Source: Kribbella rubisoli
GTDB lineage: Bacteria; Actinomycetota; Actinomycetes; Propionibacteriales; Kribbellaceae
NCBI RefSeq assembly: GCF_004217145.1
Contig: NZ_SHKR01000016.1
Location: 310,001-374,000 of the forward strand
Direction of reading: 5' to 3'
Length of the DNA stretch: 64,000 nucleotides
A program made the translations under genes and the position numbers. Of the stretch, positions 44,057 through 48,602 are shown one piece after another (the stretch's first letter is position 1; every line of letters begins with the position of its first letter). Under the pieces are notes generated by a model. The model made no database searches. It was not told where the DNA came from and saw only the letters and a program-made list of their open reading frames with translations.

Positions 44057-44764
44057 ATGTACCGCAGGCTCGTGCTCAAGCTGTCCGGGCAGGCGATCGC
44101 CGGCCCCGACGAGTTCGGTTTCAACAGTGATCGGCTCACGCACCTCGCCAACGAGGTGATCTCGTTGCGTGCGACCGGCGTACAAGTCGCGGTGGTCGTG
44201 GGCGGCGGGAACGTGTTCCGCGGCAACCGGGCCGACGACTGGGGTATTGACCGGGTCGAGGCGGACAACATCGGCATGCTCGGCACGGTCATCAACGCGG
44301 TCCTGCTCCGCGGGCGGCTGGCCGCGCTCGGCGCACACGGCGTACGGCTGATGACCGCGCTCCCGATCGACAACCTAGCCGAGCCGTACATCCGGCTTCG
44401 TGCGCTGCGGCACCTGGAGAAGGGCTCGATCGTCCTCCTTGCTTGCGGCAACGGCCAGCCGTTCACGACGACCGACTACCCGTCGGTCCAGCGCGCCGTC
44501 GAGCTCGAGGCCGACGCCCTACTCGTCGCTAAGAACGGCACCGACGGCGTGTACGACGCCGACCCGAACAAGCACCCCGACGCCAAACGCTTCGACCACC
44601 TCACCTACACCGAGGTCATCGACCGCGGCCTCGGCGTGATGGATCAATCCGCGTTCATCCTCGCCCGCGACCACCACCTCCCCCTCCACGTCTTCGACAT
44701 CGACCGCACCGGCGCCGCCTCCTCCATAGTCAACGGCACCCAACTCGGCACCCTCATCAAGTGA
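44057..44764 (+). CDS. pyrH: UMP kinase (PyrH-type), probably a second copy
   Basis: 235 aa. RRLVLKLSGQAIAG and VVVGGGNVFRGN (UMP/ATP site), GMLGTVINAVLLRGRLAALG, AEPYIRLRALRHLEKG and DGVYDADPNKHPDAKRFDHL follow bacterial UMP kinase, an amino-acid-kinase-fold enzyme phosphorylating UMP. The usual FAGGTGNPYFTTD segment reads LACGNGQPFTTTD. It is not in a tsf-frr cluster, so a divergent paralogue near the ribosomal protection gene is likely. Confidence 0.87.
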   Translation: MYRRLVLKLSGQAIAGPDEFGFNSDRLTHLANEVISLRATGVQVAVVVGGGNVFRGNRADDWGIDRVEADNIGMLGTVINAVLLRGRLAALGAHGVRLMTALPIDNLAEPYIRLRALRHLEKGSIVLLACGNGQPFTTTDYPSVQRAVELEADALLVAKNGTDGVYDADPNKHPDAKRFDHLTYTEVIDRGLGVMDQSAFILARDHHLPLHVFDIDRTGAASSIVNGTQLGTLIK

Positions 44765-44859
44765 CGGAGGTTGTAGGGGTGCGCTAAATGGTTTGTCGTG
44801 GCTTGAGCTGAGTTGGTGTACTCGGGGCGTACGAGCAGGTGTCTAGTAAGGAGTCCGTC

Positions 44860-44961
44860 ATGCGATCTCGCTTCATGTCTGTTGCTGATCGGACTGTCAC
44901 CTGTTCAAAGGACATGAAGCTGCGTGGAAGTACTGAATCTTGGGATCCTGGCGCATGTTGA
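44860..44961 (+). CDS. Candidate leader peptide overlapping the ribosomal protection gene
   Basis: A 33-codon frame opens at ATG 44860 with AAGGAG (44848-44853) and 6-nt spacing, beginning MRSRFMSVADRTVTCSKDMK. It ends at TGA 44961 and overlaps the GTG start (44924) of the downstream gene by 38 nt in another frame. Leader peptides preceding tet(M)-type genes mediate attenuation by ribosome stalling. The analogous role here is inferred. Confidence 0.55.
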   Translation: MRSRFMSVADRTVTCSKDMKLRGSTESWDPGAC

Positions 44962-46897
44962 CGCCGGAAAGACCAGCCTGACCGAGCGGCTGCTGTACGC
45001 CGCCGGAGTCATCGACGAGGTCGGTAGCGTCGACGACGGGAGCACCCAGACCGACTCGCTCGCGCTCGAACGGCAGCGCGGGATCACGATCAAGTCCGCG
45101 GTCGTCTCGTTCGCGATCGGCGACGTGACGGTCAACCTGATCGACACCCCGGGCCACCCGGATTTCATCGCCGAGGTGGAGCGTGCGCTCAGCGTGCTGG
45201 ACGGCGCGGTCCTGGTGATCTCGGCTGTCGAGGGCGTCCAGGCGCAGACCCGCGTACTGATGCGGACCCTGCAACGCCTGCGCATCCCCACCCTCATCTT
45301 CATCAACAAGCTCGACCGACCGGGTGCGCAGTACGACGGTGTGCTCCGCCAGATCGCGGCGAAGCTGACCCCGGCGATCGTCCCGATGGGCGAGGCCACC
45401 CACCTCGGCACACCCGAGGCGACGTTCAAGCCGATCCTGCAGGAGACCGCACTCCTGGAGGTCCTGACCGAGCGCGACGACGATCTCCTCGAGCGGTACG
45501 TCGACGGCGAACCGCTCGCGCTGGACGAGTCGCTCAGCGCTCAGACCCGCCAAGCGCGGGTGCACCCGGTGTACTTCGGATCCGCGATCACCGGCGCCGG
45601 GACGCAAGCCCTGACCGACGGCATCCGTGACCTGCTCCCCCGCGCCCGCACGACCGACGGGCCGCTCGACGGCAGGGTGTTCAAGGTCGACCGCGGTCCG
45701 GCGGGCGAGAAGATCGCCTATGTACGCATGCTCGACGGGACGGCGCAGGTCCGCGACCGGATCCGGTTCGGCGACAACGAAGCGAAGATCACCGCGCTCG
45801 AGGTGTTCGGCGGCCCCGCGCAGTCGAACACGGTCCGGGCCGGCCGGATCGCGAAGGTCTGGGGTCTCGCCGAGGTCCGGATCGGCGACCGCATCGGCGA
45901 TCACCGGAACATTTCCGCCAACCGGCGACCAGAAACTTCCGAAGAAACGGCGTACTTCGCGCCGCCCACGCTGGAGACGGTGATCTCCGCGCGGAAGCCG
46001 TCCGACAAGGGCAACCTGCGCGTCGCGCTGACCCAACTCGCCGAGCAGGACCCGTTGATCAACCTGCGTCAGGACGACCTCCGCCAGGAGACCTACGTGT
46101 CGCTGTACGGCGAGGTGCAGAAGGAGGTCATCGAGACGACGCTGGCGACCGAGTTCGGGATCGAGGTCGACTTCCGTGAGACGACCACGATCTGCGTCGA
46201 GCGGATCGTCGGCACCGGCGCGGCGGTCGAGTTCAAGAAGAAGGACCTGAACCCGTTCCTCGCGACCATCGGCCTGCGGGTCGAGCCCGCACCGGTGAAC
46301 GCCGGCGTGAGTTTCGAACTCGAGGTCGAGCTCGGCTCGATGCCGTACGCGTTCATCAAGGCTGTCGAGGAGACCGTCCGTGAAACGCTGCACCAGGGCG
46401 TGCACGGCTGGCAGATCCCCGACGCGCACGTCGTGATGACGCACTCCGGCTACTCCGCACGCCAGAGCCATGCCCACGCGGTGTTCGACAAGAGTATGTC
46501 CAGCACGGCCGGCGACTTCCGCAACCTCACGCCGCTCGTCCTGATGACGGCTCTCCAGCAGGCAGGTACGACGGTGCACGAGCCGATGCACCACTTCCAG
46601 CTGGAGATCCCGACCGACACCACGCGCGCAGTACTCGCGGCTCTCGCCCGCCTCCGAGCGATCCCACAAGTGCCTGCGCTCGCCGCCGAAACCTCAACCT
46701 TGGAAGGGGAGATCCCCGCGGCCGCCGTGTACGAACTCGAGCAACAACTCCCCGCCCTCACCCGCGGCGAAGGCGTCCTGGAGTCCGCATTCGAGCGCTA
46801 CCACCCGGTCACCGGCCCGATCCCGGAACGGCAACGCACCGACCACGACCCGCTCCACCGCCGCGAATACCTGCTGCACATTCAGCGGCGCGTATAG
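44924..46897 (+). CDS. Ribosomal protection protein, TetM/Otr(A)-like translation GTPase
   Basis: 657 aa from GTG 44924. GTPase motifs: AHVDAGKTSLTE (G1), RGITIKSAVV (G2), DTPGHPDF (G3), INKLDR (G4). Domain II at about 245-330; the EF-G-like III-V follow, with MPYAFIKAVEETVRETLHQG and HVVMTHSGYSARQSHAHAV, and length fits TetM/Otr(A) and not EF-G (about 700). These remove tetracycline-class drugs from the 30S A site. Its start lies inside a leader frame, and the 3' end overlaps the PrmC-like gene by 16 bp. Confidence 0.9.
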   Translation: MEVLNLGILAHVDAGKTSLTERLLYAAGVIDEVGSVDDGSTQTDSLALERQRGITIKSAVVSFAIGDVTVNLIDTPGHPDFIAEVERALSVLDGAVLVISAVEGVQAQTRVLMRTLQRLRIPTLIFINKLDRPGAQYDGVLRQIAAKLTPAIVPMGEATHLGTPEATFKPILQETALLEVLTERDDDLLERYVDGEPLALDESLSAQTRQARVHPVYFGSAITGAGTQALTDGIRDLLPRARTTDGPLDGRVFKVDRGPAGEKIAYVRMLDGTAQVRDRIRFGDNEAKITALEVFGGPAQSNTVRAGRIAKVWGLAEVRIGDRIGDHRNISANRRPETSEETAYFAPPTLETVISARKPSDKGNLRVALTQLAEQDPLINLRQDDLRQETYVSLYGEVQKEVIETTLATEFGIEVDFRETTTICVERIVGTGAAVEFKKKDLNPFLATIGLRVEPAPVNAGVSFELEVELGSMPYAFIKAVEETVRETLHQGVHGWQIPDAHVVMTHSGYSARQSHAHAVFDKSMSSTAGDFRNLTPLVLMTALQQAGTTVHEPMHHFQLEIPTDTTRAVLAALARLRAIPQVPALAAETSTLEGEIPAAAVYELEQQLPALTRGEGVLESAFERYHPVTGPIPERQRTDHDPLHRREYLLHIQRRV

Positions 46898-47646
46898 ATG
46901 CCGTGCACAACGGTCGCGCCGAGGTCGTCGTCCTCGACGATCTCGGCGGTCAGGCCGTGCTCGACCATCACCGCCCGCGCGACCGGCGCCTGGCGCTCAC
47001 TCAGCTCGACGAAGAAGTGACCGCCGGGCATCAGCCAATCCGTTGCCTCGGCAGCCACCCGCCGGAAGACAGCCAGACCGTCCGCGCCGCCGTCCAAGGT
47101 GACGTGCGGTTCGTAGAGCCGCGCCTCCGGCGGCAGCAGGCGAATCTCGTCCGTCGGCACATACGGAACGTTCGACAGCAGTACGTCGACCTGCCCGCGC
47201 AACCGATCCGGCAACGCCGAGAACAGATCGCCCTCAGACACGATCCCGCCGTACGGGAGCAGGTTGCGGCGCGCGCACTCGACCGCAGCCGGCTCGATGT
47301 CGGCGGCGTACAAGGTCACCTCGCGCTGGGCAGCGACGGCCGCGCCGAGAGCGCCCGTGCCGCAGCCGAGGTCGACCACGACCGCCCCCGCAGCGGTGAC
47401 CCGCAACGCCTCCGCCACCAAGAACTCGGTACGACGCCGTGGAATGAACACGCCGGTGTCGACGGCGATCCGCAACCCGCAGAACGACGCCCAGCCCACG
47501 ACGTACTCCAACGGCAACCCGGCCACCCGCTGGTCGACCATGGCCGCCAGCTCGGACTCGTCCCTCGCGGACTCGGCGATCAGCGCCGCCTCGTCCTCGG
47601 CGAACACCGACCCCGATGCGCGCAGCCGCTCAACAACAGTGGTCAC
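46882..47646 (-). CDS. PrmC/HemK-like N5-glutamine methyltransferase
   Basis: 254 aa from GTG 47646. Motif I VVVDLGCGTGALGAAVAAQ (about 96) and the catalytic-pocket motif LLSNVPYVPTDEIRLLPPEA (about 155). NVPY replaces NPPY, a deviation from canonical PrmC. FIPRRRTEFLV fits the release-factor methylase group. Known members methylate Gln of the GGQ motif in release factors; whether this one does is uncertain. Confidence 0.85.
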   Translation of the reverse strand: MTTVVERLRASGSVFAEDEAALIAESARDESELAAMVDQRVAGLPLEYVVGWASFCGLRIAVDTGVFIPRRRTEFLVAEALRVTAAGAVVVDLGCGTGALGAAVAAQREVTLYAADIEPAAVECARRNLLPYGGIVSEGDLFSALPDRLRGQVDVLLSNVPYVPTDEIRLLPPEARLYEPHVTLDGGADGLAVFRRVAAEATDWLMPGGHFFVELSERQAPVARAVMVEHGLTAEIVEDDDLGATVVHGIYTRR

Positions 47647-47654
47647 ACCACAGA

Positions 47655-48602
47655 TTATCCGAAAGCATTCACTCCGGTGAGCTCCGCCGACACCGTCCAC
47701 AACCGCGCTGCCGAGGCCGGGTCGATCGCATACGGCCGTACGCCGGGAGCGTCGTCGGTCGACACCTCCGCGATCTCGCAGTCCTCGCAGAACACACCGC
47801 CGAGACCGTCCAGCTGCGGCGACGTCGCGGCCCACACTTGGGTCGCCGCGCCCTGCTCCGGCGTCTTGAAACCGACGACCGGATTGCCGTCCGCGTCGAG
47901 CCAGCCGTAGCCGGCCATCTCCTCGCGGGTCAGGTGCCGCTGCAGCGGAGTCATGATGCCGCCCGGGTGCAGCGCGAACGCCCGTACGCCGGAATCCTTG
48001 CCGAGGGCATCGAGCTGGACCGCGAACAGCACGTTGGCCGTCTTCGCCTGCCCGTACGCCTGCCATTTCTCGTACCCGTTGCGGAACTCCAGGTCGTCCC
48101 ACCGGATGTCGGACCGCCGGTGCCCGGTCGACGACACCGACACGACCCGTGCACCGCCGTCGGCCACGAGCGCGGGCCACAGCCGGTTCACCAGCGCGAA
48201 GTGTCCGAGGTGGTTGGTCGCGAACTGCGCCTCCCAGCCCGGGCCGACCCGCGTCTCCGGCGAAGCCATGATCGCCGCGTTGTCGATCATGATGTCGACC
48301 GACCGCCCCGGTGCCAGGAACCGGTCCGCGAACGCCTTCACGCTCTCGAGGTCACCCAGATCCAGCTCGTCGATCTCCACACCGTCGACGCCGGCCAGCG
48401 CCTCGCGCGCCGCGTCCGGCCGCCTGGCCGGCACCACGACATGCGCGCCCGCGCGAGTGAGCGCCTTCGTGGTCGCCAGACCGAGACCGGAGTAGCCGCC
48501 GGTGACGATCGCGAGCTTGCCGGTCAGGTCGATCCCGGCAAGGACCTCGTCCGCAGTGCTGTCGTGCCCGAACCCCGAGCCGATCTTGTGCTGTTCACCC
48601 AT
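47655..48602 (-). CDS. Short-chain dehydrogenase/reductase (retinol-dehydrogenase-like)
   Basis: 315 aa. LAIVTGGYSGLGLATTKALT (cofactor), IDNAAIMASPETRV, SVSSTGHRRSDI (Ser) and YGQAKTANVLFAVQLDAL (Tyr-Lys). The longer C-terminal tail and the NNAG variant DNAAIM match the SDR group often annotated as oxidoreductase/protochlorophyllide-reductase-like. Likely soluble, NADP-dependent. It sits 8 bp upstream of the PrmC-like gene on the same strand. Confidence 0.88.
   Translation of the reverse strand: MGEQHKIGSGFGHDSTADEVLAGIDLTGKLAIVTGGYSGLGLATTKALTRAGAHVVVPARRPDAAREALAGVDGVEIDELDLGDLESVKAFADRFLAPGRSVDIMIDNAAIMASPETRVGPGWEAQFATNHLGHFALVNRLWPALVADGGARVVSVSSTGHRRSDIRWDDLEFRNGYEKWQAYGQAKTANVLFAVQLDALGKDSGVRAFALHPGGIMTPLQRHLTREEMAGYGWLDADGNPVVGFKTPEQGAATQVWAATSPQLDGLGGVFCEDCEIAEVSTDDAPGVRPYAIDPASAARLWTVSAELTGVNAFG

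Follow-up and report, generated by a model that had tools for sequence, protein, structure and literature searches.

The window analysed here, a 64,000-nt stretch of a Kribbella rubisoli contig, carries a gene for an EF-G-like ribosomal protection GTPase whose 5' end is overlapped, in another reading frame, by a short leader open reading frame (Table 1). The domain set places the protein in this family: GTP_EFTU, EFG_III, EFG_IV and EFG_C exceed their Pfam gathering scores, and EF-G_D2 stays under its own. The first-pass annotation had labelled the gene TetM/Otr(A)-type. The likeness holds, but the protein reaches only 734.8 bits against the NCBIfam Otr(A) model NF000120 (curated cut-off 900) and 700.9 bits against the tetracycline ribosomal protection model NF012153 (cut-off 775), and because it falls short of both cut-offs we call it Otr(A)/Tet(M)-like rather than filing it as an Otr(A) member. 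Its nearest named relatives among the best 80 of 569 loci are from Kribbella. Upstream, positions 44057–44764 encode a UMP kinase (pyrH; TIGR02075, 276.8 bits, over the cut-off), whose 3' end lies 95 nt before the leader start; downstream, a minus-strand frame at 46882–48180 with a PrmC-related methyltransferase (TIGR03704 at residues 182–427) converges on the GTPase gene, the two 3' ends sharing 16 nt.

Table 1. Features at the 5' end of the GTPase gene (positions in the window).
Feature	Position	Strand	Description	Basis
WblC/WhiB7-like candidate promoter	44784..44822	+		layout match
Leader Shine-Dalgarno	44848..44853	+	AAGGAG	sequence
Basal 5' hairpin arm	44858..44864	+	holds leader ATG; partner 44921–44927 (with GTG)	fold, pairing probabilities
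Leader ORF	44860..44961	+	33 codons plus TGA; out of frame, 38 nt overlap with GTPase gene	
Upper 5' hairpin arm	44870..44880	+	GCTTCATGTCT; leader codons 4–7; partner 44910–44920	
GTPase Shine-Dalgarno	44907..44912	+	AAAGGA; its GGA lies inside the 3' hairpin arm	sequence
3' hairpin arm	44910..44920	+	GGACATGAAGC; predicted to sequester the GTPase Shine-Dalgarno, holds its GGA	
GTPase gene	44924..46897	+	GTG start, 657 aa; Otr(A)/Tet(M)-like ribosomal protection GTPase	
Dual-coded stop	44957..44962	+	Val-Asp GTT-GAC yields leader TGA 44959–44961	

The leader had already been picked out in the first-pass annotation as a 33-codon frame from ATG 44860, preceded by AAGGAG and ending 38 nt inside the GTPase gene in a different frame, and the sequence confirms each of these points. 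The frame opens with ATG at 44860–44862, reads MRSRFMSVADRTVTCSKDMKLRGSTESWDPGAC and closes with TGA at 44959–44961; as its start lies 64 nt before the GTPase start, the two reading frames differ. An in-frame GTG at 44839 would give a 40-aa version, but the alignment of orthologues places the conserved leader start at 44860. With its own Shine-Dalgarno sequence, its start, its frame and its early stop all conserved, the leader is predicted to be translated. Leaders in this group run to 33–36 codons as a rule. In translational attenuators of resistance genes the leader normally ends before the regulated gene, whereas here it ends, as a rule, 38 or 47 nt inside it.

Conservation of the overlap and the dual-coded stop

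A scan of named genomes gave 569 loci, of which the best 80 were kept; one (L066) was dropped before counting because its match has no upstream sequence, and together with the window 80 genes were compared. All counts out of 80 below refer to this selection. The distance from an upstream ATG or GTG to the GTPase start is exactly 64 nt in 75 of the 80 genes, and these 75 form a gapless alignment; the other five have spacings of 61 nt (L060, L077) or 65 nt (L053, L068) or a longer one through repeat expansion (L023). A stop in the leader frame falls within the first 20 GTPase codons in 79/80, against 13.4 (sd 3.3) of 80 expected when the genes are synonymously recoded with their own codon usage. 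Judged from these sequences, the overlap of leader and GTPase gene is not a product of chance. The search for the same overlap in orthologues, which the first-pass annotation had proposed as a check, thus returned both the spacing and the early stop. That annotation had also named what would count against it, namely orthologues extended upstream in the leader's frame or lacking the leader; no such extension is seen and leaderless orthologues are few, so the proposal survives its own test. An N-terminal extension of the GTPase is ruled out: the leader is out of frame, its spacing is kept in those 75 genes, and the conserved N terminus starts at the GTG.

The stop itself appears to be written into the GTPase gene. 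Among the 79 genes it falls at +47 in 70, at +38 in eight and at +53 in one. The +47 stop, 9 nt beyond the position of the window's TGA, is a TAA formed out of the P-loop Gly-Lys codons GGT-AAG, and it is this dual-coded stop that other lineages use. The P-loop Gly codon is GGT in 70/80 genes, although GGT makes up 10% of Gly codons elsewhere in the genes and encodes the nearby Gly of LNLG in 1/80; eight of the ten genes without the P-loop GGT use Val-Asp GTT-GAC (TGA), as the window does. Over three protein-selected sets (n=130), the solution is GGT in 109 genes, xxT-GA in 17, neither in four and both in none. By contrast, in an EF-G control with the same motif, taken from 30 genomes of genus g26 (probably Streptomyces), the Gly codon is GGC in 30/30, and a stop equivalent to that of the leader frame occurs in 3/30, each at +62 and none by +60. 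On these codon counts, the GTPase gene creates the early leader stop through its choice of rare synonymous codons. Across a tree of 110 genes the stop type changes at least five times; an independent-pairs test on this tree was not significant and, the genes being related, cannot reach significance.

Leaders that have shifted by a single base end elsewhere. L068, the single gene without a stop in the original frame, ends at +37 in the new one, and the shift in L053 gives a 133-codon frame in which the early stop is lost. Five further leaders with the 65-nt spacing (L145, L307, which is the same place as L161, L318, L337 and L344) have their stop, of a third type, at +58 of the shifted frame. 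Separately, the Val codon of AHVD (44957–44959 and the positions aligned with it), GTT in the window, is the rare GTA in 29/80 genes, and GTA places a TAG in the third frame as well.

More broadly, sequence comparison finds the leader-overlap arrangement in well above 100 relatives. In genus g26 (199 genomes), each of the 30 top-ranking Otr(A) matches (29 over the cut-off, L217 just under it) has an out-of-frame overlapping leader, which ends at +47 in 27 and at +38 in three; of the two scans behind this count, one demanded a leader in register and the other did not. Their hairpin arms differ in sequence from those of the 80 genes, and the GTPase Shine-Dalgarno is nevertheless predicted to be sequestered in 27/27 testable genes. 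A more distant set was drawn from 394 class genomes and comprises 20 matches of 45–55% identity without a model hit (G421, whose match lacks the N terminus, was excluded). Here the leader is found in 19/20, the exception being L186, with the Shine-Dalgarno sequestered in 15/17 testable genes and, by starts picked with a script rule, a start-to-start spacing of 67 nt in 7/19 (range 52–70). L164 (62% identity) carries the element at a greater distance upstream, its leader also lies far upstream, and the scan found no overlapping one. A diverged paralogue in the window's own genome (L002, G000:C1:694200-694545) has its own overlapping leader of 35 codons, as do, with leaders of their own, the genus paralogues L149, L150, L152 and L157; these paralogue leaders have 32 to 35 codons and different sequences. 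No leader of this type is present in L186, L273 or the diverged Kribbella paralogues L151, L154 and L155.

Outside Actinobacteria, a Paenibacillus plasmid gene (L253, 40% identity) has an out-of-frame leader ending at +38 via GTT-GAC, which hints at an older origin of the arrangement, and two Rhizobiaceae plasmid genes have overlapping leaders ending at +53 and +77. In the Rhizobium pC5.7d gene the stop is present and no leader was found. Two other candidates were rejected: for clostridial tetB(P), which its annotated tetA(P) overlaps, the scan gave only an in-frame TTG frame, and for tet(W) only a 79-codon TTG frame.

The predicted hairpin over the GTPase start and the readings it permits

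The GTPase Shine-Dalgarno is predicted to pair with the first 22 nt of the leader (p>0.5) in 74/80 genes; the GTPase start is paired in 71/80, and with the leader start region in 63/80. RNAalifold predicted no pairs on the 75-row alignment, in which the bulge is placed differently in Kribbella and Streptomyces, and because this consensus was empty the pairing was tested by arm swapping and by named pairs. Across 79 genes, own arms pair at -22.3 kcal/mol versus -20.1 for permuted arms, and 0/20,000 permutations were as good, a significance inflated by the relatedness of the genes. Own arms are better than the row mean in 65/79 genes and than the column mean in 58/79; Kribbella 3' arms, however, are bound better by non-Kribbella 5' arms (-20.9) than by Kribbella's own (-18.9). 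Standard pairs fill 83.8% of cells on the alignment versus 20–53% (at most 53.1%) with slid partners. Double-sided changes number 18 cells versus 6.3 in shuffles, and slid partners yield similar counts. Fold stability is only modestly above shuffles, with a mean z of -1.82 versus -0.67 for an internal control, z below -2 in 34/80 genes versus 5/80, and -1.09 for the window itself. A search of 44600–45100 gave no Rfam matches up to E 5. Folding and alignment together point to pairing between the GTPase Shine-Dalgarno and a leader segment, as in translational attenuators.

We consider it likely that the element works by translational attenuation, that its leader extends into the very gene under its control, and that it senses the position of the leader ribosome. 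At the heart of the switch there is probably sequestration, since leader codons 4–7 and the leader start codon are predicted to pair with the GTPase Shine-Dalgarno and start. The proposed cycle has several steps. First, in the absence of drug, the GTPase start would be hidden in the hairpin; a leader ribosome that melts the hairpin would then travel across the start and occupy it until termination, 38 or 47 nt into the gene. Second, an A-site blocker (a tetracycline, probably also another early-elongation inhibitor) would arrest a ribosome on the first leader codons; this ribosome would keep the 5' side of the hairpin open, so that a second one could use the GTPase Shine-Dalgarno and GTG. Finally, the GTPase would clear the drug and the switch would reset, with a WblC/WhiB7-type promoter adding transcriptional induction. 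The signal would be the position of the ribosome rather than the sequence of the peptide.

A footprint model of 75 genes, in which a ribosome on each leader codon in turn is assumed to shield the RNA from 14 nt upstream to 16 nt downstream of its first P-site base, yields three states. Average access without a ribosome is 0.30 for the GTPase Shine-Dalgarno and 0.15 for the start; with a ribosome at codons 1–7 it is 0.40–0.51 and 0.32–0.36, respectively, and in the window Shine-Dalgarno access goes from 0.49 to 0.68–0.69, so that the modelled gain is moderate. Under the same assumed footprint, the GTPase start would lie beneath a leader ribosome at about codons 12 to 32, and a ribosome terminating at the window's leader stop would be just clear of that start. 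On E. coli toiL, ribosomes stalled by tetracycline during initiation have their downstream edge at +16 to +18, and the topAI Shine-Dalgarno becomes exposed (PMC12121999); with an edge at +18 on the present leader, only 3 nt of the upper 5' arm would stay outside the footprint.

These results bear on two claims of the first-pass annotation. Its idea that ribosome behaviour on the leader governs use of the GTG at 44924 is borne out as far as the leader is conserved and overlaps out of frame; its reading had left out the sequestering hairpin, and the mechanism is one that we infer. Of its two suggestions for that mechanism, coupling or occlusion, occlusion fits the footprint at codons 12–32, and coupling fits the Otr(A) spacings less well. 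In MS2, the coat and lysis genes are linked by termination–reinitiation coupling, with a hairpin over the start. In an equivalent process here, ribosomes would finish the leader 38 or 47 nt past the GTPase start, backtrack and initiate afresh at that start. This would account for a leader stop kept a short distance downstream of it, and the hairpin resembles that of MS2. Nevertheless, with starts chosen by script, the distance from GTPase start to leader stop in Otr(A) genes ranges from 38 to 92 nt, yet start-to-start spacing clusters at 67 nt (19/30, range 46–70). Moreover, the stop sits where synonymous codons permit, and coupling alone yields no drug response. We regard this account as quite improbable.

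Occlusion by the leader could also be constitutive, the leader acting as an upstream ORF that lowers GTPase output while induction is purely transcriptional through WblC/WhiB7. The candidate promoter of the window consists of CTAAAT (44784–44789), 3 nt, TTGTCG (44793–44798), 18 nt and TGTACT (44817–44822); a plain sigma-70 consensus scan found no promoter here. The corresponding layout, an AT-rich hexamer, 3 nt, TTG, 17–18 nt and T[AG]NNNT, precedes the leader in 68/80 genes, whereas mononucleotide-shuffled upstream sequences give 0.44 of 80 on average. The WblC site is given as GAAAWY, 3 nt upstream of the -35 element, in PMC7157823, where S. coelicolor tetM (SCO0783) is a WblC-activated gene; the window's hexamer matches four of the six positions. 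The promoter layout, the WblC dependence of SCO0783 and the roughly 20 codons over which leader ribosomes with the assumed footprint cover the GTPase start all speak for constitutive occlusion, but it leaves unexplained why leader arm and GTPase Shine-Dalgarno pair in two groups with different arms, and we think it unlikely.

Drift along the leader was examined in the 52 closest pairs out of 110 distinct leaders. Codons 8–16 have no codon-position bias (89, 107, 81; p=0.15), 35 of 137 single-base codon differences there are synonymous versus 34.1 expected, and by this comparison these codons drift neutrally. Codons 2–3 do have a bias (20, 5, 21; p=0.005). Codon 2 begins with CG and varies at its third base, so that the peptide may be retained in part, namely at its second residue, Arg. 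Codons 4–7 and the Shine-Dalgarno arm vary little, in keeping with their place in the hairpin arms. That start, frame and stop are kept but the middle residues are not suggests that the leader functions through the passage or position of the ribosome and not through its peptide sequence. Stalling at a drug-specific arrest sequence in the leader peptide, as in ermC, could draw on the consensus MR..FMS of the Kribbella/Streptomyces group and on the bias at codons 2–3. Most of the conserved residues, however, fall on the hairpin arms, the neutral codons 8–16 bear no sign of peptide selection, and Otr(A) leaders differ in sequence, all of which makes nascent-peptide arrest highly improbable.

Transcription attenuation is established for Enterococcus tet(M) (PMC5418344), a gene whose leader peptide and attenuator the first-pass annotation had named as known. 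Its operation at the present locus would be exceedingly improbable: a search for terminator-like sites at 44600–45100 returned none, and the hairpin sits over the gene start. Our preferred reading remains translational attenuation by ribosome position.

Possible portability and relation to known systems

A covariance model built on the 75-row alignment finds one element in each of 36/38 genus genomes, some of them training relatives; the two genomes without a match hold diverged paralogues only. Elsewhere it matches in 40/394 class genomes, 53/200 genomes of family f19, 18/22 of f22 and 56/200 of f21. In f19, 52 of 57 matches were read (those in G678, G754, G729 and G650 and a second-strand match in G724 were left out): 39 come with a GTPase gene, 12 lie before an ABC exporter and one lies before an MFS protein. 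At the GTPase loci the leader is in register with a stop at 47 or 38 in 34 of 35 scored, L273 having none; L127, L129, L130 and L284 (spacing unscored) stand beyond these 35. Families f21 and f22 contribute 44 loci, including L158, L159 and L161, which had been read before; 42 are GTPase genes, 38 of them with the leader in register. Two of the 44 (L309, L346) are degenerate GTPase genes that retain the leader element.

Among the pump loci (L256, L257, L260, L265, L275, L276, L285, L286, L290, L292, L295, L303 and L296), the ABC exporters are identified by Pfam at two and, at the other exporter loci, by 64–79% identity to the L256 exporter. Eleven of the pump loci have no GTPase remnant: there, leader and pump gene are in different frames, the leader stop falls at +38 to +65 of the pump gene, start-to-start spacing is 61 or 64 nt save in L292 (62 nt, shifted leader), and the Shine-Dalgarno pairs with the leader at about 0.8 in 9/11 (L286, 0.00; L292, 0.16). 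In L260 and L276 the GTPase gene is mostly deleted, and a remnant lies between leader and exporter. These remnants point to a route, in which deletion of the intervening GTPase gene passes the leader to the next gene.

The element therefore looks, from its distribution, like a widespread and portable drug-responsive switch. A fuller proposal, which we hold with evenly balanced confidence, is that a start-to-start hairpin and an overlapping leader form a portable drug-sensing cassette, which monitors where an initiating ribosome stands. The cassette would go far back in the Otr(A)-like family, and possibly further than Actinobacteria, and unrelated drug pumps would have acquired it, partly via GTPase deletion; with the stop placed in synonymous P-loop codons, a nucleotide-binding motif would be dual-coded for its own regulation. 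There are several implications. First, actinobacterial tetracycline-type resistance genes, the Otr(A) family included, would share a common control switch. Second, the conserved rare P-loop codon would be explained. Third, the covariance model could be used to find drug-responsive genes of other kinds. Finally, the locus offers a test of start-codon stalling by tetracycline, shown for toiL in E. coli, as a general sensing principle.

In the open-access literature that we searched, no description of an overlapping leader at Otr(A)-type genes was found; the first reports of S. rimosus otrA and S. lividans tet may mention one. From the comparisons that follow, the element would be translational attenuation of a known type, new in that its leader overlaps the gene out of frame.

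The closest parallels each share part of the design. As in ermC-type attenuators, a leader ORF is combined with a hairpin over the ribosome binding site (PMC10219788, PMC5418344); ermC relies on drug-specific arrest in its leader peptide, whereas here the peptide is mostly unconserved and the leader ends inside the gene. Enterococcus tet(M) likewise has an attenuator ahead of a homologous GTPase gene, but that attenuator acts on transcription (PMC5418344), and no terminator was found here. Actinobacterial drug-sensing upstream ORFs are known from whiB7/wblC and ARE-ABCF genes (PMC7157823, PMC12421871, PMC10201436), and the WblC/WhiB7 upstream ORFs and Streptomyces ARE-ABCF leaders are similar in this respect; they serve transcription attenuation and other genes than here (PMC7157823, PMC12421871). 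The Bacteroides tetQ attenuator also uses a short leader to control translation of a tetracycline ribosomal protection gene (PMC5418344). Its leader has only a few codons (a four-codon upstream ORF in PMC12121999), in contrast to the 33–36 codons and out-of-frame overlap described here. In E. coli toiL–topAI, as predicted here, an upstream ORF pairs with the downstream Shine-Dalgarno, which a tetracycline stall at the start of the upstream ORF sets free. By contrast, toiL–topAI is a toxin–antitoxin system involving Rho-dependent termination and, as described in the accessible text, has neither an overlap with the regulated gene nor a stop coded inside it (PMC12121999).
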